Shown here: piece after piece, positions 1-48,309 of the stretch | Position numbering within the stretch: the first letter of the stretch is position 1 | Layout of the letters: each line of letters opens with the position of its first letter | Assembly (NCBI GenBank): GCA_003697105.1 | Contig: RFFQ01000057.1 | Span: 1-48,309 of the forward strand | Direction: 5' to 3' | DNA length: 48,309 bases | Source: Gemmatimonadota bacterium | Lineage (GTDB): Bacteria > 4572-55 > J002 | Program-made: the position numbers and the translations under genes | Notes under the pieces: generated by a model | What the model was told of the DNA's origin: nothing | The model's database searches: none | The model's input: the letters and a program-made list of their open reading frames with translations, nothing else

Positions 1-1911
1 CAGTGAATGGGCAATGCCGGTACAAGCGTCCTACACGGGTGCGGGTGCTGAGTTTGATGCCGATGGTGAACTGTGGCTAGTCAGCCAGAACGATTCCAAC
101 ATCTACCAGATGCAGTTCAGCGATTATCTGGGTGGTCGTGGTGTTGGCTCGCAACCGTGGGTCTTTATCGATCCGATGGCGGCGTCCGTCTGGCCCGAAG
201 ATTCGCCGCTGGAAGGTACCATTACATTTGATGCAGACACGGATGAAGGGGAATTATTACTCGGTGGTACCTACTATGCCGTGGCGCACTTCCTCACCAA
301 CGATCCGGAAAACCCGGATGTCGAAGTGACCTGTATCTTCAATATTGGCGGTACCTGCGCCGAGGTGAGCATTGATACTGATGAAGTGTACGAATACATC
401 CTTGCCGGTGCTCCATTAACAACGTCCGTTGCTGTCAGTAACGCTGAAGGTGCGTCGGCAATGGCGGAGTGGAGTGTTGATTTGGGTGGTGTTGATTGGG
501 TCGAAGCGGTTCCGTCCAGTGGTAGCGGCTTGCTGCCGGGCGATACCCATACCTTTGATCTGGTCTTCAATACCGATCAGCCGGTGGGTCTGTATGAAAC
601 CACTGCTATCGTTAGCTGGAGTGGTGGCGATTGTGCCGATGAAATTAGTTTTCCGGTGACAATGGAAGTCTTTAACCCGGATATCGTCGTGGAAGATACA
701 TTCTATGAAATGACGATTGACGTTTCCGATCCGCCGGAAGGCTACGCGATTTCCGATCTGATCAGCATCTATAACAACGGCTCCGGTCCGTTGATCTACG
801 AAGTGGATATTGACTTCCAAGACAACCGTGCCGAAGCCCTGTTGGGTGACCATGTCAAACCATTGACGCAGGCGTTTGCACGTCCAGCTAATAAAGCCGC
901 TGTGGCGAAAGCCGACCGTCAACCGGTTAGCTACTCCTTGGCACGTACTGCCGAAGAGTTGAACCTACGTCCGCAACCGCTCAGTGGTACGCTGCGTACC
1001 GGTGAAGTGCTCAACAACTGGGCACCGGAAGGTACACAACCGTGGGGTATCAACTGGAGTGACAATCCGGAAGAAGCGGTTTGGGTCACCAATCCGTTTG
1101 CCGGTTCGCCGATTATTACGGCTCATAGCCCGGAAGATGGTAGCGCACTCGACTTTACGTTGGATGCCTCCGGTTGGATGGGCTCTTGGGTTGGCGATAT
1201 GGCATACGACTGGAATCACGATGTTTTCTGGTGTGTGAATGTCGGTGGTGACAACAATATCTACGGTTTAGACCCGGAAACGGGCGATGTTCTGTACGTC
1301 GTAGAAGGTGAGTTCAACTTCACCTCTGCGCGTGGTCTTGCCTATGATAACAACACGGATACCTTCTACATTGGTAGCTGGAATTACACTGACATCTACC
1401 ATGTTGAAGGGATTGATAGCGACACGCCGGGTGCGACGATCCGCACCTTCCCGTGGAGCGGTGTTTCTGGTTTGGCGTTCCACGAAGGCAGCAACATGCT
1501 GGCTGTGATTGTGAATGCTGCGACGGAAGCCATCACGCTGGTCAATGCGGAGACGCTGGAAATTGACAGCGAATGGGCAATGCCGGTACAAGCGTCCTAC
1601 ACGGGTGCGGGTGCTGAGTTTGATGCCGATGGTGAATTGTGGTTGGTCAGCCAGAGCGATTTCAACATCTACCAGATGCAGTTCAGCGACTATCTCGGTG
1701 GGCGTGGCGTCGGTTCCTTACCATGGCTGAGTATCGATCCGGCAGCCGCTTCGGTTTGGCCCGAAGATTCGCCGCTGGAAGGTACTATTACGTTTGACGC
1801 TCAACCGGAAGACGGTGGTGAAGTCCTGTTGGGTGGTACCTACTACGCTGTTGCCCATATCCTGAGCAACGATCCGGAAAACCCGGATGTGGAAGTGGTC
1901 TGTATCTTCCA
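1..1911 (+). repeat. In-frame direct repeat, copies 1-345 and 1567-1911
   Basis: The first 345 bases recur 1566 bases downstream, that is 522 codons, keeping the reading frame. The first 60 bases differ at a single position. Further in, the copies diverge but still encode near-identical protein (GAGAEFDADGELWLVSQ, then YLGGRGVGS, then SVWPEDSPLEGTITFDA). The second copy carries one extra codon. This is the end of a propeller module plus the start of the following Ig-like domain, and indicates module duplication within one gene. Earlier copies may lie outside the window. Confidence 0.9.
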
Positions 1912-4435
1912 CGTAGAAGGTGCTGAGTGTAACCCGTCTGTCGAACCGGCAGAAATGGATATTCCGGTTTGGGAAGATGCCTATGCGGAAGAAACGTTGA
2001 TGATTGGCAATGCCATCGATGCGACCGCATATGCGACGTACACCATCGAAATCGATCCGGCTGTGGAATGGCTGGAACTGAGCCAGTACGAAGGTAGTGT
2101 TGAACCCGGTAGTGCGGATGATGTCACATTGATGATCATGCCGCCAAGCGAGGGTGGTGACTACTCTACCAGTCTGCTTATCACCTTTGATTGTTTCGAT
2201 GATGGTCCTCAAACGATTGAAGTTCCGGTCACCATTAACGTCTCTGACCCGGCGGCAACGCTTGATCCAGAGTCGATCTATGGTGCAGGCGAACTCGGTG
2301 ATGTTGTGGAAGTCAACCTGCAAGTCTGTAATGTTGGCGACGGTGACTTACCGTTTATTACCGCGTTTGAATTTGTCGAAGACGAAGGTGATGGACGGGT
2401 TGTTCGTGACCTGGTTGCCGGTCAAGATTCTGATGCCCGTAAGGGTGATGATGAAGCCGGTTCCGGTACGCCGGTACTGCGTGGCTCCGGTGGACCCGAC
2501 TACTGGGGTTACTCCTGGGTGGACAGCGATGAAGGAAATGGTCCGGTATTTGAATGGAATGACATCAGCGAAAGCGGTACGATGATCTCTGGTCTCGGTG
2601 ACGATACCAACGTCGGTCCGTTTGATCTGGGCTTCGATTTCGAATACTATGGTCAAACCTTCAATAGCATCCGCTTCTGTACCAATGGCTTTGCGACGTT
2701 TACCAGTACGCTGGCCTCTTTCGGCAACTCCTGTATCGGTGAAACCGATGGTCCAGAAAACATGCTGGCACCGTTCTGGGATGATCTGCACGTGCGTAAT
2801 GGTGCCGGTTACTACCTGGCAGATGGAAATACCTTTACCCTGCAATGGACCAATTTTGGTCGATTTAGTGGTGATGGTGATTACACCTTCCAGATCGTGA
2901 TCAAATCCAATGGTGAAATTTACTACTACTACAACAGCATGAGCGGTATCCTTGATTCCGCTACTATCGGTATCGAAGATCAAGCCGCGGCGGGTCTGGA
3001 AGTTGCCTGTAACACGGCATACGTCCATGACGAATTAGCGGTTAAGATTTCTGCCGGTAGCTGGTGCTACACCGATCCAGAAGAAGTGTATGTGTACGCT
3101 GGTGAATGTGCCGACGTGACGGTCTATCTGGATGGAAACGAAGTTGACGGTGAAGGTCAATACACCGGCGAATTGTGGCTCTGGCATAATGATGCCGACT
3201 TGCCAAATCCGTTGGTTGTTCCGGTAGTCTTTGATGTGGGTGTGCAAGGTGTCTTCACCATCTCCGGTCATGTAGGTTACTGGAACGATAACCTCGATAT
3301 GGCTGGTATTGAAGTGCAGATGCACGGCGACCTCGAAGATGTCTTTATGACCGATGATACCGGTATGTACGCAATGGTGGATATACCCGGTGGTAACTCG
3401 TACTGGACAGAACCCGCCATAGAAGGCTATCCGGTTGAAGAGCGTCATCCGTCCATCTCTGCCTTCGATGCGGCACGTACCGCGCAGTTCTCTGCCGGCA
3501 GTTATGATCTCAATGAGTACCAGCAACTTGCGGCGGATGTTACCGGCGACGGTAGTATTTCTCCGTTCGACGCGGCTCGTATCCTGCAATACTCGACCGG
3601 TATTGCCAATAGTTCTCGCACAGGTGAATGGACCTCCTCGCCAGAACTGTACGAATACATGCCGCTCGAAATGGATATGTTCGATCAAGATTACTTTGCC
3701 ATCCTGTATGGTGATGTAACCGGTAACTGGGCACCCGATGCCGCCCGCGTGAAAGGTCAATCTGACCGGATCGCGAGTGCTATGGTGACTCTGGCGGATG
3801 CTCAGGTGGCACCGGGCGAAGAAGTCGTGATGCCGTTGATCGTCTCCGATCTGACGGGTCTTGACGTCATCGCTCTGCAAGCGTCGTTGGAATATGATGC
3901 AAATGTACTGGAGTTTGTCGGTTATCGCACTGCCGGTACGTTAACCGAAGGATTTGAACTGGCAGAATCTTCAAATCTGGGTGGTTACGCACTGCAAGCG
4001 ATTGCCGGCGAAGGTACGTTAATCGAAGTGGTCTTCAAGGCTGTGGGTGAAATCGGTGAAAGTAGCACCGTGACGTTGGGTGGTTTCATGCTCAACGAAA
4101 CGGTTCTGGCAGACCTCAGTGCCGAAGTCAAGGTAGTGCCGCAAGTGGCAGTCCCAGAAAACTTCGCTCTGAGCCAGAACTACCCGAATCCGTTCAACCC
4201 GGTCACGAAGATTACGTATGCTCTGCCTGAAGCTGCCAATGTTTCGTTGCGCATCTATGATGTCACCGGTCGTCTGGTTACGACCTTAGTCGATGGCGCG
4301 CACGAAGCCGGTTACTTCAATGTCACCTGGACAGGCACGGATGATTTGGGTAACGCCGTTTCCAGCGGTGTGTACTTCTATGTCATTCAAGCCGGTGACT
4401 TTACGCAGACACGTTCGATGACGCTGTTGAAGTAA
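2..4435 (+). CDS. Giant secreted surface protein, 5'-truncated by window edge: beta-propeller/Ig modules, dockerin, cohesin, T9SS sorting domain
   Basis: The frame is open from base 2, and the first residues (SEWAMPVQ) recur inside the protein at about 1570, so the Met at 14 is internal and the true start lies left of the window. In order it shows the end of one propeller-like module, BACON/Ig-like stretches with SNDPENP motifs, a second propeller module (about 990-1700), more Ig-like sequence, and a nidogen-like segment (about 2500-3060). A dockerin-like pair follows at about 3450-3720 (ADVTGDGSISPFDAAR, then YGDVTGNW), then a cohesin-like domain at about 3770-4125. The C-terminal T9SS type A domain contains QNYPNPFNP, RIYDVTGRLV and SSGVYFY. 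The family role is surface display or adhesion through T9SS; ligand and substrate are unknown. Two terminator-like hairpins follow. Confidence 0.85.
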   Translation, partial: SEWAMPVQASYTGAGAEFDADGELWLVSQNDSNIYQMQFSDYLGGRGVGSQPWVFIDPMAASVWPEDSPLEGTITFDADTDEGELLLGGTYYAVAHFLTNDPENPDVEVTCIFNIGGTCAEVSIDTDEVYEYILAGAPLTTSVAVSNAEGASAMAEWSVDLGGVDWVEAVPSSGSGLLPGDTHTFDLVFNTDQPVGLYETTAIVSWSGGDCADEISFPVTMEVFNPDIVVEDTFYEMTIDVSDPPEGYAISDLISIYNNGSGPLIYEVDIDFQDNRAEALLGDHVKPLTQAFARPANKAAVAKADRQPVSYSLARTAEELNLRPQPLSGTLRTGEVLNNWAPEGTQPWGINWSDNPEEAVWVTNPFAGSPIITAHSPEDGSALDFTLDASGWMGSWVGDMAYDWNHDVFWCVNVGGDNNIYGLDPETGDVLYVVEGEFNFTSARGLAYDNNTDTFYIGSWNYTDIYHVEGIDSDTPGATIRTFPWSGVSGLAFHEGSNMLAVIVNAATEAITLVNAETLEIDSEWAMPVQASYTGAGAEFDADGELWLVSQSDFNIYQMQFSDYLGGRGVGSLPWLSIDPAAASVWPEDSPLEGTITFDAQPEDGGEVLLGGTYYAVAHILSNDPENPDVEVVCIFHVEGAECNPSVEPAEMDIPVWEDAYAEETLMIGNAIDATAYATYTIEIDPAVEWLELSQYEGSVEPGSADDVTLMIMPPSEGGDYSTSLLITFDCFDDGPQTIEVPVTINVSDPAATLDPESIYGAGELGDVVEVNLQVCNVGDGDLPFITAFEFVEDEGDGRVVRDLVAGQDSDARKGDDEAGSGTPVLRGSGGPDYWGYSWVDSDEGNGPVFEWNDISESGTMISGLGDDTNVGPFDLGFDFEYYGQTFNSIRFCTNGFATFTSTLASFGNSCIGETDGPENMLAPFWDDLHVRNGAGYYLADGNTFTLQWTNFGRFSGDGDYTFQIVIKSNGEIYYYYNSMSGILDSATIGIEDQAAAGLEVACNTAYVHDELAVKISAGSWCYTDPEEVYVYAGECADVTVYLDGNEVDGEGQYTGELWLWHNDADLPNPLVVPVVFDVGVQGVFTISGHVGYWNDNLDMAGIEVQMHGDLEDVFMTDDTGMYAMVDIPGGNSYWTEPAIEGYPVEERHPSISAFDAARTAQFSAGSYDLNEYQQLAADVTGDGSISPFDAARILQYSTGIANSSRTGEWTSSPELYEYMPLEMDMFDQDYFAILYGDVTGNWAPDAARVKGQSDRIASAMVTLADAQVAPGEEVVMPLIVSDLTGLDVIALQASLEYDANVLEFVGYRTAGTLTEGFELAESSNLGGYALQAIAGEGTLIEVVFKAVGEIGESSTVTLGGFMLNETVLADLSAEVKVVPQVAVPENFALSQNYPNPFNPVTKITYALPEAANVSLRIYDVTGRLVTTLVDGAHEAGYFNVTWTGTDDLGNAVSSGVYFYVIQAGDFTQTRSMTLLK

Positions 4436-34492: not shown

Positions 34493-34592
34493 GGCAATGC
34501 GTGGGACAAATAGCCCGAACTTATTGATATTGCTGTTAATATTAAGGTACGGAAAAGAGGATTGTCAAGCTATTTTTCAGGAGTCGTTACCG

Positions 34593-35996
34593 GTGAAGCC
34601 CACCTTACAAGAGGTGTTACGCCAAATTCCATCCGTTGATACGTTACTGAGTTCTCCAGAAATTCAGTCGATCCTTGGGGAGGCTCCCCGTTGGGCGCAA
34701 GTGGCAGCGGTTCGCCAAGCCGTAAATGCCTTACGCCAACAGTTGGTGGCACATCCACAGCAAGCGGTCGATATTCTTTCCACCTTATCGGCGCGGATCG
34801 CCACCGAGTTGGCATCGTTGCTTCAACCCAGTTTGCGTCGGGTCATTAATGCGACTGGCGTGATCATCCACACCAATTTAGGACGTTCTTTATTGTCTCA
34901 AGCCGCACAATCGCGCGTGGCGGAAGTCGCGGCACATTATTCTACGCTAGAATTTGATCTCGATGCCGGCCGGCGAGGTAGCCGGCATAGCCATGTGGAG
35001 CGTTTGCTGGTCGAGTTGACCGGTGCCGAAGCGGCAATGGTGGTCAATAACAATGCCGCGGCAACGTTTTTAATGCTGGCGGCGTTGGTGCACGGTAAGG
35101 AGGTGCTCATCTCGCGGGGGCAGTTGGTTGAAATTGGCGGGAGTTTCCGTATGCCGGATGTAATGGCGGCGAGTGGTTCCATCATGGTTGAAGTCGGTAC
35201 TACCAACAAAACCCATTTGCGGGATTACGAACAGGCACTTTCCCCAGAAACCGGTGCGATTCTCTATGTGCACCAAAGTAACTTTGCCATTGTGGGTTTT
35301 AGTACCATGCCAAGCCCCGCAGAATTGGTGGCATTGGGACACCGCCACCAACTACCGGTGCTGGAGGATTTGGGATGCGGTGCTTTCCTCAATTTTGCGT
35401 CGTACGGCTTGCATCCAGAACCTACGCCTAAAGCGAGTATCGAAGCCGGTATGGACGTAGTTGCTTTCAGTGGGGATAAGTTGCTGGGCGGTCCCCAAGC
35501 CGGCATTTTGGTGGGTAAAGCTGTATATATTGACTGCATCCGCAAACATTCTTTGGCGCGGGCATTGCGGGTGGATAAATTCACGGTGGCGGCGCTGGAA
35601 GCCACCTTACGTCACTACCATGATGAGCAGGAAGCACGGCAGGAAATTCCCACGTTGCGGCTCTTGACCCTGCCGGTAGATGACCTTTGGAAACGCGCAA
35701 AACGCATCAAACGCCGCTTACATCTGCCGGATCATCTCCAGTTGAACTTGATTGAAGGTGAATCCGAGGTCGGGGGCGGGACAATGCCCTTGCAAAAATT
35801 ACCGACGGTAATCCTGGCACTTTCCAGCCACCAGCAGTCTGCCAATCAACTGGAGCAGACGTTGCGGTTGGAACGGCACCCTCCTATTATTGGGCGTATC
35901 CAAGCGAATCGGGTCATGCTTGATTTGCGGACGGTACTCCCGGAAGAAGATTCGGAATTGGTGGCTGCCCTGAATCAATTTAACTCCGGTTCGTAA
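34593..35996 (+). CDS. selA: L-seryl-tRNA(Sec) selenium transferase
   Basis: 467 residues from the GTG at 34593, which has AGGAG nine bases upstream; the promoter maps its transcript start after the longer ATG at 34497. The length matches E. coli SelA (463). Marks: RVINATGVIIHTNLGRSLLS, TGAEAAMVVNNNAAA, EVGTTNKTHLRDYEQAL, LEDLGCGAFLNF, and the PLP-binding lysine Lys296 in FSGDKLLGGPQAGI. It converts seryl-tRNA(Sec) to selenocysteinyl-tRNA(Sec), so the organism probably makes selenoproteins. No selB, selD or tRNA-Sec is seen here. It is followed directly by a thioredoxin-fold gene. Confidence 0.95.
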   Translation: MKPTLQEVLRQIPSVDTLLSSPEIQSILGEAPRWAQVAAVRQAVNALRQQLVAHPQQAVDILSTLSARIATELASLLQPSLRRVINATGVIIHTNLGRSLLSQAAQSRVAEVAAHYSTLEFDLDAGRRGSRHSHVERLLVELTGAEAAMVVNNNAAATFLMLAALVHGKEVLISRGQLVEIGGSFRMPDVMAASGSIMVEVGTTNKTHLRDYEQALSPETGAILYVHQSNFAIVGFSTMPSPAELVALGHRHQLPVLEDLGCGAFLNFASYGLHPEPTPKASIEAGMDVVAFSGDKLLGGPQAGILVGKAVYIDCIRKHSLARALRVDKFTVAALEATLRHYHDEQEARQEIPTLRLLTLPVDDLWKRAKRIKRRLHLPDHLQLNLIEGESEVGGGTMPLQKLPTVILALSSHQQSANQLEQTLRLERHPPIIGRIQANRVMLDLRTVLPEEDSELVAALNQFNSGS

Positions 35997-41593: not shown

Positions 41594-41677
41594 GGCCTTG
41601 ACTATAGTTTGACGTGAAATCGCCTTATCCCTTTCTATATCAACTAGTTACGTTTATTATTTTAATCCGATACTATG

Positions 41678-42777
41678 CAAGTTACTGATAAAATGGCTCT
41701 TATCACCACCGAAGTTCCTGGGTAATCTGTTTCACCGCGGTTCGGAAGCTAATCTTCTGTTTCGACTGAACCCGAAAAAGAGCAACCACCCACCCGGCAA
41801 GGGCAATACAATAGAGATGCGATTTGATGGTATTGACACGCCGATAAGACCGTTTATCCAGCATCAGATATTGCTTGTAATATTTGAAGTGCATCTCGAT
41901 GTCCCATCGTTGGCGATACTTTTTATCGACCCGAACTGCGTTATAGAAGAGTGTATTGCAAAGCAAGGCATCATATGCCCATTTTCCATTTTTTAGGCGT
42001 CGCTTTCGAAAGACCAACACCACCTTCCCATACTTGCGATGGGTCACGATATATCGTTGATAGCCCCGGTGTCCATCCAGTTCATGCCAGTGGCGCTCTT
42101 TGATGATTTCAATGATTTCCCGGGGCTTCAGATACTGCGCTTCAAATTCAAATTTGAGCGTATTTCCGGCTTTGGTGATGATTCGCAATCCGGCAGTATT
42201 CGCGGAGAGAATTACGTGTTCTTTGGCATACGCCGCATCAAAGAGAATCTCAACATCATTCAAATCATAGCCGTGTTGTTGACAATCGAGCGCCAGTTGG
42301 TCGATGAAATCATGAAGCATCTTGTTTTTTGAACGATAGTCCGGATGCGTTTCCGGCAGCCAGAGCATGATCGCCGGCGGAAAGATGTAGTCGCCTGATC
42401 GGACAAGGATCATCACATAGTTGTAACCCATCAGATACCGGTCATGGCAATGATCAAAGAGCTTGTGCAGAAACGCTATGTGACTGCCGAACTTTTCGTC
42501 TTTGGTATCATCTGCCAATAACTGAATCTGATTCCGACTTCGATCCGTCTCATTCATGGTTGAGAAGGCTTGGAGCAACTCGAAAAACAACTTTCGGCTC
42601 AGGAGTTCTGTCAATCGGGCAAAGCAGTCCGGATAACGGTATAAAATTTGGTAGAGACGGGGCAGGTCTTTCCCATGAGTGTGAGCGTATCTTCATCTAA
42701 AATAATATGCATAATGGGTTTAAACTAAACGAGTTACCCCTACTTGGGTATAAACTTTAGGAATTTTTTGTAACTTG
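41678..42777 (-). mobile_element. IS4-like insertion sequence
   Basis: The element carries one DDE transposase gene. Possible ends are CAAGTTAC (41678-41685) and its exact complement GTAACTTG (42770-42777). TCCGATA occurs at 41666-41672 and again at 42781-42787, a possible 7-base target duplication, although it stands 5 and 3 bases from the repeats, so the precise ends are uncertain. At about 1.1 kb it is slightly short for IS4 relatives. It sits between the ends of two convergent genes for giant surface proteins. Confidence 0.55.
41703..42712 (-). pseudogene. IS4-like DDE transposase, frame interrupted near the N-terminus
   Basis: The main frame (TTG at 42614 to stop at 41703, 303 residues) carries the catalytic acids: Asp in LLADDTKDEK, Asp in ILFDAAYAKEH, and Glu in the Y-R-E-K block YRQRWDIEMHFKYYKQYL. 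The natural N-terminus lies in another frame: ATG at 42712 reads MHIILDEDTLTLMG and then meets a stop, while the main frame is open upstream and reads GKDLPRLYQILYRYPDCFARLTELL. The two join at GGGAAAG (42674-42668), a one-base backward step. Either a one-base mutation broke the gene, or this is a programmed -1 frameshift; joined length would be about 337 residues. The family moves DNA by cut and paste. Confidence 0.75.
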
Positions 42778-42917: not shown

Positions 42918-43130
42918 TTACTGATTCTGTGATAGCCGCCATTGCCGAATCCATTCTTGAATATCATCGAATCCAGCACCATCAAACGGTTCAACAAGAT
43001 CAAAACGAGGGTGAAAATTACCCCGATGACGAATCAAGAATTGTATATCGCGTATATCAATAATACCGTCACAATTGATATCGTAGGAACAAGTAGGAAT
43101 CGTCTCGATCCAATTGGGGTAGGTAAATAC
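42918..43130 (-). pseudogene. Detached dockerin-like tail of the giant lipase/VWA gene
   Basis: Directly after the in-frame TGA (43133-43131) the same frame stays open for 70 codons to a TAA at 42920-42918. The first residues (VFTYPNWIETIP) complete the last strand of the PKD domain cut by the stop. They are followed by a dockerin-type calcium loop (YDINCDGIIDIRDIQFLIR) and a degenerate second half (EPFDGAGFDDIQEWIRQW). Either a point nonsense change, a sequencing error, or stop-codon readthrough separates it from the main gene. The remaining bases 42778-42917 show nothing recognisable. Confidence 0.75.
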
Positions 43131-46100
43131 TCAATCCCGATCACCATCCGAAAGAGTTAATGTTACGGTAAAGGTATCCACCTCGGCGTATGTATGAATA
43201 GGATACTGATCGTCAGAGGTTTGTCCGTCACCAAAATCCCATACCCGGCTGATAATCTCAACGATACTTTCGGCATCGTCTGCAAATTCCACAGTCAAGG
43301 GAGCATAACCGTAGTTCACACTCGCTTCTGTTCGATCCCGAATCCACACAATCTCCATCTGAACTTCGATCACAACTTCCTCCTCTTCGGGGTCATTGGA
43401 AGACAGCCGCAAATTTGTAGTGTAAAGCCCTTCCGGAAGCGGATCATCCTCGAAAAGATTGAGTTCGATGATCAGATATTCATAATCACCGGGCATAATG
43501 ACCCCACCTTCCGGGTAAAATAGCAGCCAATCGGAATCCCGTAAACGTCCTGAACGAGACCATGAACTCGCCTGCGTTTGTTCATGAATATCCCAATACA
43601 ATGGAACCGCGCCATCATTGGCAAGTTCGATTTCCAGAACATCACTCTCGTACGCCAGCAACTGCCGATAAATCCGCAGCGAATCCAACCTGATTACCAA
43701 ATCTGCCGGTGGAACCACAACATCCAGGGGCACGGTCAGTGACCCGTTGTCGGGATCATTGGAGGTAATCTCCACCATAAATGAATAATCACCCGGTGCT
43801 ACTTCTTCCGGGTCATTCACACCAAGTATCAGATATACGTCTTCTTGATTGAATTCGTTTTCATCATAACGGGGTTCAACCCTACCGGAGGTGGGATCAA
43901 TCTCAATCCACCACGGCTCAGCGACATCCGCCTGACTCTCCCATTCCAACTCCAAAGTGCCTCGATTTTCGATTTCGAGGATAAATTCAACCTCGCCATC
44001 CATCGGGTAATACATCTCCAACTCTGGCGGATTCACAGCAATATCCGGCTGGGGGGCATGAACAATGATCGCATCCTCACGAATAAGGCTATCTTGTTCG
44101 ATCCCATTCGCAATCGCCAACTTCACGGCGTAAGAACATGCTTCTTCACAGGATTCATCATATTCGTACACGTAGGTGGGAGCACGATTTTCCGAATCAA
44201 TGACACCATCATTATCAAAATCCCACGCATAGCGGCTGACCGGTGGATAACCCTCCGATTGGTCGACAAACGAGACGGTCAAACTCTCGATGCCCTCCTG
44301 AACATCAACCTCAAACTGTGGTTGCAATGGTTGAAAATCCTGAAAATAGAGACTACCAGCCTGCCGACGCTGAAAGGACTCATCGGCAGCGACTGCCGTT
44401 AGGATAAATTGATATTCGCCACCCTGCGAAAAGTCATACGCCAATGTGTAGAGACCGTCATCGTCTGAATCCAAAAGCGATAACACTTCGATGACATTAT
44501 CAGGACGAAGCAGTTCCAACGATATTGTGGCATTGAGAAGTGGCAAGCCACCCTCCGTAAATTGAGCGGTAAGTTCCATTTCGCCAGTAGGATAGGTGTC
44601 GTTGCTTAAATTGGTCGTCAATTCCAGTCCACCGCGACTGGTGAAACTCAGAATATAGGGATCATCCCCGTAGAGTTCATCAACCGAAATGTCGATCTGC
44701 CAGATGCCTGTAAGTGGATTTTCGACGGTATAGGCAACCATCGTAGAATTTTCTTCAGGAAAAATGATGATCGTGGAGTCTTCCGGCGGTGTGACACTCA
44801 TAGTAAGACGATTATGCGGATTGCGCCACATCAACGTAAATGTTGCTTGGGTTAAAAAGTCTTCCACATACACCTCGTGAGCGTACGTGGTATCCTCCTG
44901 AAAAACATCCTCAATTCGTTCGTTTTCCTCACCGAGAGACAGGTTTACATCCTGCGTATAGAATGCATCTTGCAATAGCGCCACATCCAAAACACCTCTG
45001 CGTTCCGGGATATGGGCATGATTGCCGCCGGTGCCACTGGCGATTGCCGACATACGACCGGTTTGAGCGCCTGAGCCAATGGAAAAGGCGTGAATCGGCA
45101 ACGGTGATTCGCCCTCTCCATCGCGTAGCAACCGGATGATTTCGGGTAATTCCCGGTATTCTTCCGATGGCGGTTCTTCGTTGGGTAACGCGCGACCGCT
45201 TTCTTCCAGCGGCGGCGGCATTTGTCCGCCAAAATAGTCGGCAATGACCTCGCTAATTACCGGAGAAGCCGCATTATTCTGACCATCCGTCATCAGGAAA
45301 AATGCCTTGCGCCCATAATCCGGTTGATTCAGCGCCGCATAACCGGTTAGCAGACCCAAACCAATATTGGTCGATCCAATGGGATTACTTAGCCCATTTA
45401 CTGCATTAATAGCGGCTTCTCGGTCTGCCTCGGAATTCAGCCGACGGGAAAAAATCTGCTCTCCGGCATCGGTAAACGTAACAATCGCCACCGCTTCCCC
45501 TAAGCGACGACGGCTGAGACTCTGCGTTACGGCTTGTTTGAGTTTTTCCCAGCGTTGATGTTCGCTCATAGAACCCGATTTATCCAGAATGTAACAGACT
45601 GCCGGAACATCACCTGACGGCGGCGGGGGCGGTGGAGGCGGATAATCCGGATCGCATTCGTTGGGTACACCATCACCATCACGATCATTGCGGAACAATT
45701 GGCACTCATCCGGGATGTCATCGCCCTGACAGTCGGTAACACCGTGCTCGATGATCTCCTCACGGTCGGGGAGGCGGTTATCGTTACAGTCCGTAAAGGG
45801 ACGGATAACATGGCTGATAATATCGTTATCGTCCACAAGTCCATCGCCGTTGGTATCGAAAACGGGTCCAAACGTCCAGGTGTATTCTTCGCCGGGGGTG
45901 AGCGGCACTGCCGGCAGCCAATTCATGCCGGTGATGTTGCCCTCATCATCATAAATCCATTCGATAGTACCTGGAATCTCATTCCCCTCGCTGTCCGTAC
46001 AGACGGCGCTGTTGATGATAGAATTTTGGGTGGCAGTATCTGCCGGATCAATGACAAAGCCGCCAAAATCGACCCCCAGAGAATCGTCCGGGGCAAAGTT

Positions 46101-48309
46101 ACCGTACTCCGCCGGATTGCCGCTGCCTCCACCGCCCGCGCTGCTACTGCCGGCGATCTGAAGCACCACCCCAACGTTGAAGGCATGATGCGTGTCCGTA
46201 CCGGATTCGTAACCCACCACCGTTTGGGTACTGTCAATGATGCGGCTCACGGACTCCGGCAGTTGATCCAATGGCAATCCATGCTGATGGCGGGCATCAA
46301 CGGTCAGAGCAAACGCGCCGGTCATATTCTGTGGTAGAATCAGATTTCCGTCCCACACAGTGTCGGACGTCCACCGACCCGCCACCAACGCTGTTAGTGC
46401 TGAATCCCCTCCCGCCGGATAGGGATAATTCAGCCACACTTGGGGCGGCTGATCCGTATTCATCGCCGTAGAAAAAGTCAACCGGAGATTCAATAACCCA
46501 CTGACCGGAGCAACGGTGTCCTGTTCCGTCAGGGTGCGGGTCGTATCACCGCTGTCAAGCGCCCAAACGGCATGATAAATTGTATCGGGAGCCGTGCGTA
46601 CCGGCGGAGAAGCGGGCAGTTCCAGCAAGACCTCCTGTAAAATTGCCGGAGCGGGATCGTGGATGGTAAACACATGGGTTGTATCCCAGCCGGGTTCGTA
46701 CCCAACGTAGACGTATTCGGTGTCGCGCTCAGTAAAGTGGGGAATTGTAGCAGGATCGCTGTCAATCAGGTTGCCGTAGATATCCGTGCCGGGGATGTGC
46801 AGACGAAAATCGCCGATCTTATCTGCCGGTAGTACCGCCATACCCAGCCAAAGCGTATCCGCCGCCCAGCCGGTGCTATCCTGCGGGAAGACGGTCACCT
46901 CCTGTTCGTCACGGTGCAGCAGCCGCACGTTGGGTATCCGGGTCATATCCATCGGTTGGGAAAAGGTGAGTTCGATATCGAGCGTATCGCCCGGGAACGC
47001 CGGTACCACCGCCGGATCGTGGATGAGTACGCGACTGGTATCGGTGAGGTCTTGCCAATGGGCGGAGTAATTAAATGCAGATTGTCGCTGTCCTCTATCT
47101 TCAGGAAAATTTAGACGATTCGGAACCCTCGAACGAATGACATCGCAAACCGTAGAGCGAGGTATAAGTCTATTTTGGATTGCCAAAGCCGTATAAAACT
47201 TTACATTGTCAACCAGATTAATATGAGTCTCGTCGGAAAAGCTGGATTGAATGTACTGATAGTAATGATGTTTTTGAGCAGATTCTCTATTAACAGGTAT
47301 TGGCAACCAATGCAATGCGCCATGCAGACTATCATCTCTGCGTTCAGCACCTTCCCCACCAATTCCCAGGATGGTGTATTGACTTTCCTCTTGCACAATC
47401 CAATCTCCAGGACCCAATGTTGTGCCCCCTTTTTGGCGTGTCCCTTTTGGTACAGGCAAAGGAATTGGGGGCAAAGGTGCAAATTGTGCAAGTGTCGGCT
47501 TCCTACGGTTATAAGCGGTTGAAACATACGAGACATATAGTACATCTGAAGCAGGTGTTTTCCCTTGAAAGGCTTCCATAAATTGATTTCTAAAGACAGA
47601 ACCATACACATTTGTTAACTCCCCTGTGGTCTGCTGATAACCCGTGGGTCCCGCAGGGTCAAACTTGTCCGGTGGATACGCTCTGGTCATCCAAAATCGA
47701 ATCTCATTTATCCCGCGTCCTTCTTCATCATCTTGATCTGGAAATGGCAGGGAAAGAAAATCGGCAAGTCCAGCACCGGCAAGCGGAGAATCAATTGTAA
47801 TCACTCTGGATACATCATTATCATAGTCGAATGAAGGGAATGAATAAACACTTACCGGTAAATCTATAAAATCAACTTTCATATGATCTTTAATGGGATG
47901 TATTCTTCTATACTTTTCCATTGCCTCCGCAGAAATATAAAGACGACTCCCCGCATTATCTGTCGGGCTCATGGTATAATACGCAGAAACAATCCCACCC
48001 CGACTATGTCCTATCAAGGTCACTTTCGTAGTCGGGTAATTAGGGAATCGCTGATTGTGCAGATATAGCGCATGCTGAATCGCGGTTTTGAGATGTGGAA
48101 TATCCTGTTCAATCGCATTCTCGCCTGTGCCCATTTCGTTTAATCCGGGATATCTTGGTCTAGCGGGTACACTGTATATTACCCGCCCTTGATCACCTCC
48201 GTTATACTGTTTAAGAAAATTTTCAAACTTTACCCAATCTTCACCCGTTCCGGTTGTACCGATAACAAGTAAGATCGGCTCTTCAGGTGCTCCTGCCTCA
48301 GATATATGA
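43131..48309 (-). CDS. Giant multidomain secreted protein: lipase-like hydrolase, Ig-like, VWA, PKD; 5' end outside window
   Basis: The frame is open to the last base, so the start lies beyond 48309. At least 1725 residues are visible. An alpha/beta hydrolase comes first (PILLVIGTTGTGEDW, nucleophile Ser in TLIGHSRGGIV, possible His in DETHINLVDN). Two duplicated Ig-like units follow (about 46990-46180, each ending VGYExGxDTxHxF). Next come a calcium loop DTNGDGLVDDND, a PPPPPPPP linker (about 45620) and a von Willebrand A domain with intact MIDAS DKSGSMS (about 45584) and FFLMTDGQN. CLCA-like strands, a PKD domain (YAWDFDNDGVID), two ASPM/CARDB-like Ig domains (SNDP motifs) and a last PKD complete it. 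The TGA stop falls inside this last PKD. Probably an exported, surface-acting hydrolase/adhesin; substrate unknown. Confidence 0.82.
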   Translation of the reverse strand, partial: HISEAGAPEEPILLVIGTTGTGEDWVKFENFLKQYNGGDQGRVIYSVPARPRYPGLNEMGTGENAIEQDIPHLKTAIQHALYLHNQRFPNYPTTKVTLIGHSRGGIVSAYYTMSPTDNAGSRLYISAEAMEKYRRIHPIKDHMKVDFIDLPVSVYSFPSFDYDNDVSRVITIDSPLAGAGLADFLSLPFPDQDDEEGRGINEIRFWMTRAYPPDKFDPAGPTGYQQTTGELTNVYGSVFRNQFMEAFQGKTPASDVLYVSYVSTAYNRRKPTLAQFAPLPPIPLPVPKGTRQKGGTTLGPGDWIVQEESQYTILGIGGEGAERRDDSLHGALHWLPIPVNRESAQKHHYYQYIQSSFSDETHINLVDNVKFYTALAIQNRLIPRSTVCDVIRSRVPNRLNFPEDRGQRQSAFNYSAHWQDLTDTSRVLIHDPAVVPAFPGDTLDIELTFSQPMDMTRIPNVRLLHRDEQEVTVFPQDSTGWAADTLWLGMAVLPADKIGDFRLHIPGTDIYGNLIDSDPATIPHFTERDTEYVYVGYEPGWDTTHVFTIHDPAPAILQEVLLELPASPPVRTAPDTIYHAVWALDSGDTTRTLTEQDTVAPVSGLLNLRLTFSTAMNTDQPPQVWLNYPYPAGGDSALTALVAGRWTSDTVWDGNLILPQNMTGAFALTVDARHQHGLPLDQLPESVSRIIDSTQTVVGYESGTDTHHAFNVGVVLQIAGSSSAGGGGSGNPAEYGNFAPDDSLGVDFGGFVIDPADTATQNSIINSAVCTDSEGNEIPGTIEWIYDDEGNITGMNWLPAVPLTPGEEYTWTFGPVFDTNGDGLVDDNDIISHVIRPFTDCNDNRLPDREEIIEHGVTDCQGDDIPDECQLFRNDRDGDGVPNECDPDYPPPPPPPPSGDVPAVCYILDKSGSMSEHQRWEKLKQAVTQSLSRRRLGEAVAIVTFTDAGEQIFSRRLNSEADREAAINAVNGLSNPIGSTNIGLGLLTGYAALNQPDYGRKAFFLMTDGQNNAASPVISEVIADYFGGQMPPPLEESGRALPNEEPPSEEYRELPEIIRLLRDGEGESPLPIHAFSIGSGAQTGRMSAIASGTGGNHAHIPERRGVLDVALLQDAFYTQDVNLSLGEENERIEDVFQEDTTYAHEVYVEDFLTQATFTLMWRNPHNRLTMSVTPPEDSTIIIFPEENSTMVAYTVENPLTGIWQIDISVDELYGDDPYILSFTSRGGLELTTNLSNDTYPTGEMELTAQFTEGGLPLLNATISLELLRPDNVIEVLSLLDSDDDGLYTLAYDFSQGGEYQFILTAVAADESFQRRQAGSLYFQDFQPLQPQFEVDVQEGIESLTVSFVDQSEGYPPVSRYAWDFDNDGVIDSENRAPTYVYEYDESCEEACSYAVKLAIANGIEQDSLIREDAIIVHAPQPDIAVNPPELEMYYPMDGEVEFILEIENRGTLELEWESQADVAEPWWIEIDPTSGRVEPRYDENEFNQEDVYLILGVNDPEEVAPGDYSFMVEITSNDPDNGSLTVPLDVVVPPADLVIRLDSLRIYRQLLAYESDVLEIELANDGAVPLYWDIHEQTQASSWSRSGRLRDSDWLLFYPEGGVIMPGDYEYLIIELNLFEDDPLPEGLYTTNLRLSSNDPEEEEVVIEVQMEIVWIRDRTEASVNYGYAPLTVEFADDAESIVEIISRVWDFGDGQTSDDQYPIHTYAEVDTFTVTLTLSDGDRD

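Follow-up and report, generated by a model that had tools for sequence, protein, structure and literature searches.

The window analysed here, 48,309 nucleotides in all, is the entire contig C124 of a draft genome of 4.18 Mb in 199 contigs, with an estimated completeness of 96.85%. It carries a gene for a giant protein on the minus strand, which the first-pass annotation had left unstated. The frame of this gene stays open between the contig end (48309) and a TGA at 43133-43131; counted from its first ATG, at 48134, it has 1667 codons, preceded by 58 further open codons. The features of the locus are the following.

43134-48308, minus strand: principal open frame of the giant protein, cut off at its 5′ end by the contig edge.
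47970-48104, minus strand: weak PGAP1-like lipase/alpha-beta hydrolase segment (PF07819, E = 0.0018, under its cut-off), with a GHSRGG nucleophile motif in the translation.
45279-45593, minus strand: VWA domain with a DxSGS MIDAS motif (PF13519, E = 2e-9).
43098-43343, minus strand: last PKD domain, which matches PF18911 with E = 4.8e-10 as far as the stop and is complete only with the TGA read through.
43131-43133, minus strand: in-frame TGA codon, read in the sequence.
42921-43097, minus strand: stranded dockerin-like tail, consisting of a canonical calcium loop DINCDGIIDIRD and a helix, then a degenerate second loop and a helix.
42918-42920, minus strand: TAA, the ancestral gene end, read in the sequence; most tails of the same kind in this genome are also terminal.
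41602-42760, no strand assigned: apparent IS element, with a DDE_Tnp_1 transposase at 41703-42614 (minus strand) and imperfect terminal inverted repeats.

The predicted domain content is best explained by a secreted multidomain protein that would combine a lipase-like segment and a VWA domain with repeated beta-sandwich and PKD domains. In a scan of genome contigs and a plasmid search, relatives of the window protein showed only PKD-level similarity. No orthologue of the giant gene was found: the genus, family and order are represented by this genome alone, and the class and phylum by one other genome, which does not have the gene. A decayed paralogue fragment is present at the start of another contig of the same genome (C44, 35-125), where it sits among broken reading frames and is 89% identical in DNA to window positions 46840-46930 of the giant gene.

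Read along the minus strand, the frame runs through LTLSDGDRD to the TGA at 43133-43131, continues with VFTYPNWIETIPTCSYDINCDGIIDIRDIQFLIRHRGNFHPRFDLVEPFDGAGFDDIQEWIRQWRLSQNQ (70 codons, 43130-42921), and closes at the TAA at 42920-42918. If the TGA is read through, the result is an open frame of 1796 aa that holds this one TGA, and no second lesion was found anywhere in it. The first-pass annotation had proposed that the TGA cuts a module made of a PKD domain and a dockerin, and that the 70 codons after it complete the PKD strand and encode a dockerin loop before the TAA. Sequence and homology bear out both proposals, as set out below for each part of the module.

With regard to the PKD domain, we aligned 25 PKD domains from other organisms, and all of them pass through the TGA with no gap at the site. 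The residues in the TGA column are D in 17 cases, N in four, Y in two, and S and A in one each. We also built an AlphaFold2 model on this alignment, in which residue 80 is a placeholder that stands for the TGA. The model of the read-through product has a confident last PKD strand at residues 79-91, with a mean pLDDT of 97 over residues 81-90, and the best Foldseek matches to it are solved PKD domains (PDB 1l0q, 2y72), which cover the PKD part only. The read-through product aligns end to end with the PKD family (PF18911/PF00801) and resembles these structures in predicted fold, whereas the giant protein as encoded misses the final strand; the WDFGDG motif together with a complete beta-sandwich is found in the read-through product only. 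Because the alignment and the model both place the last strand across the TGA, the product as encoded would be without this strand and without the entire dockerin tail.

The tail itself was identified with a profile of six dockerin tails from this genome, hereafter sibling tails, from which the stranded tail was left out. In a search of the whole genome, this profile matches the stranded tail at 42933-43097 with E = 6.0e-10, and in a six-frame search of 206 kb with E = 6.9e-12, covering profile positions 1-54 of 57. All other strong whole-tail matches in the genome lie within frames of at least 372 aa, while this one lies in a frame of 70 codons; of these matches, the stranded tail alone is detached from a long reading frame. 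Pfam Dockerin_1 (PF00404), which matches all six sibling tails, reaches only E = 0.015 when applied directly to the stranded tail, under its cut-off, and the second loop is degenerate. A type I dockerin binds a cohesin and has two calcium loop-helix repeats of about 22 residues. Compared with the type I dockerin and with the sibling tails, the stranded tail is alike in its first loop and helix, its C-terminal place, its length and its invariant Asp positions, but its second loop has an indel and falls short of a complete set of calcium ligands. With its second calcium loop degenerate, the tail may already have been weakly constrained. The AlphaFold2 model has tail helices at residues 106-115 and 134-148, and is less confident in the tail than in the PKD part. 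The role of the tail would be a putative calcium-dependent docking or surface attachment.

Many proteins encoded in the genome carry a terminal dockerin-like pair. Ten of the 11 sibling tails that we read end 0-35 residues before the stop codon, and the eleventh, on contig C31, runs on into a terminal domain of the PNPFNP type. The stranded tail finishes four codons ahead of the TAA. Since sibling tails are terminal, we take this TAA to be the proper end of the gene. More generally, the C-terminal modules of large secreted proteins in this genome (loci L105-L119 and L153-L156) fall into two classes, PNPFNP-type domains and dockerin pairs, of which the C31 protein has both; the PNPFNP-type domains look like type IX secretion signals. 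We also noticed, by eye, near-identical tandem repeats of cohesin-like appearance on contig C157 (3-1856), and dockerin- or cohesin-like segments in the first gene of the window (14-4435). These suggest a putative non-cellulosomal set of dockerins and cohesins in the genome.

It had further been claimed that such a continuation would not arise by chance. The claim stands on the homology to sibling tails, but the length of the continuation would not have carried it: in the DNA that we sampled, nine of 92 same-frame runs downstream of a stop stay open for at least 70 codons, so the length is only mildly unusual. Five of these long runs score clearly coding-positive, and we took each of the five for an antisense frame or a neighbouring gene. 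For the extension, the codon log-likelihood is +1.9 in frame and negative in the other two sense frames, and reaches +3.6 in one antisense frame; codon statistics are a weak indication of coding. The sibling-tail homology is decisive, and we therefore regard the extension as genuine coding sequence, about which its length and codon usage say little. Homology and frame continuity are both seen directly across the TGA in the aligned sequences. There is little room for doubt that the ancestral gene ended at 42918 and is interrupted at 43131. The earlier wording, that the gene once ended or still ends at 42918, is accurate for the ancestral end; annotated coding now stops at 43131.

Two candidate explanations for the interruption were rejected. 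The IS element, whose terminal inverted repeats read CTAWAGTTT...TTATTATTTTA, comes no closer to the TAA than about 157 bp and leaves the gene untouched. (A solo end of this element, which matches it at about 93% identity along 77 bp, lies on contig C44 at 1100-1176.) A reassignment of TGA in the genetic code is refuted by the 26 of 93 long ORFs that end in TGA in a sample of the genome, which includes some antisense ORFs, so that the fraction is approximate; TGA is a common, normal stop in this organism.

We consider it most likely, with a probability of roughly 0.58, that the TGA is a recent and real nonsense change of a single codon in an otherwise intact frame. According to this reading, the gene once encoded a secreted multidomain protein with a dockerin-type calcium-binding tail at its end. 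Within the codons for the last strand of its final PKD domain, a sense codon would then have become TGA through a recent point change, so that translation would now end at 43131 and yield a protein without the last PKD strand and without the whole dockerin tail. The lesion appears to be young because the 1725 codons upstream and the 70 codons downstream are all still open. We infer a genuine and recent change in the organism, and a loss of the tail's role. Like an ordinary nonsense-interrupted gene, the giant gene has one in-frame stop, an intact frame and a homologous continuation downstream, and it differs from such genes in nothing but its undescribed protein architecture.

The main rival explanation, which is possible though less probable, is that the TGA is an error of sequencing, assembly or consensus, or an allele of a minority strain, and that the organism has a sense codon here and makes the full PKD-dockerin end. 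A difference of one base would be enough, with both flanks intact and in frame, and the assembly is a fragmented draft in which the gene itself is cut by a contig end. There is also precedent for such caution, in that a survey of selenoproteins in the Sargasso Sea kept in-frame TGAs seen in a single sequence as candidates only, with sequencing error being possible (PMC1088965). On the other hand, the site is outside any homopolymer and is present in a single copy in the assembly, with no repeat collapse apparent, and similar interruptions are not frequent: among about 90 sampled ORFs, no other gene interrupted in the same frame was apparent. A nonsense change and a base error were two of the three explanations originally put forward, beside readthrough, and they remain the two leading ones.

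The remark of the first-pass annotation that the presence of selA makes selenocysteine (Sec) thinkable now has a stronger case at the level of the genome. In addition to selA (window 34497-35996), the genome encodes selB (C10:325-2208) and a tRNA-Sec with anticodon tca (on C25). Since no Sec-type FdhA scored above the cut-off as a positive control, we used selD in its place (C12:941-1864, minus strand), which has one in-frame TGA, within LVACAG-TGA-ASKIAP. Downstream of this TGA lies a good SECIS-like hairpin, CGCCAGGGGUCCUGGACG, with a folding energy of -7.4 kcal/mol, which was matched by 11 of 100 shuffles. The in-frame TGA and hairpin of selD, together with selA, selB and tRNA-Sec, make Sec a very likely reading of UGA in this organism or lineage.

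For the giant gene, however, decoding of the TGA as Sec to give a full-length selenoprotein is very improbable. The gene shares with bacterial selenoproteins, such as the organism's own SelD, an in-frame TGA and a coding continuation in a genome with Sec machinery, and a hairpin of 6 bp with a G in its 3-base loop lies 19-34 nt past its TGA. Yet this hairpin folds at -3.3 kcal/mol, compared with -7.4 kcal/mol after selD, and is at the level of chance, with 15 of 150 shuffles being equal or better; when the 51-101 nt from the TGA onwards are folded, the z-scores range from -0.7 to +0.4. A scan for SECIS hairpins is weak evidence alone, given that the selD hairpin was itself matched by shuffles. 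The protein context is the stronger argument against Sec. According to published surveys (PMC1794560, PMC1088965), most known bacterial selenoproteins have a redox function and Cys homologues, whereas the giant protein has neither Cys homologues nor a redox motif, nor a SECIS element better than chance. None of the 25 aligned PKD domains has a Cys in the TGA column or within three columns of it. A strict scan for PKD motifs gave too few cases, so we used the alignment and a looser scan instead, and in this second, looser set a Cys was likewise absent from the aligned position in all 78 PKD ends. The site is in a beta strand of a PKD domain, which is not a redox site. The doubts first raised about Sec at this TGA, and about any convincing SECIS after it, have thus been reinforced by the folding and the protein comparison. 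Because the Sec machinery and the selD TGA are real, an automated hunt for selenoproteins could wrongly list the giant gene.

We also weighed programmed or leaky readthrough of the UGA by a near-cognate tRNA, in which a minority of full-length protein would carry the dockerin tail. This would agree with a tail that is intact and in frame over 70 codons past the stop, with its first calcium loop kept, but the recency of a nonsense change accounts for the intact tail equally well. Moreover, the main product would end within the PKD fold, which is an unlikely design, no stop codon was seen ahead of any sibling tail in this genome, and there is no stimulatory structure downstream beyond what is expected by chance. 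We thus consider readthrough improbable. Even with Sec and regulated readthrough taken together, there is only a slight chance that the UGA is decoded and a fraction of the protein has the dockerin tail. If it were, the decoded UGA would amount to a stop-codon switch between a free and a docked surface protein, in a bacterium with Sec machinery.

Finally, translation could restart past the TGA and yield the tail as a small protein of its own, for which the open frame and the intact coding homology would speak. This is the least probable reading of all. Neither ATG nor GTG occurs in frame within the 70-codon extension, whose sole in-frame TTG is beyond the first calcium loop, which the product would therefore lose; a free dockerin without an export signal also makes little sense.

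The finding of the stop is thus correct and most likely ordinary: the TGA is probably a plain mutation or a base error rather than a new decoding trick. If the nonsense change is real, it would show a giant secreted protein very soon after the loss of its docking module, and would be a reminder that automatic annotation calls the giant gene shorter than its former extent.
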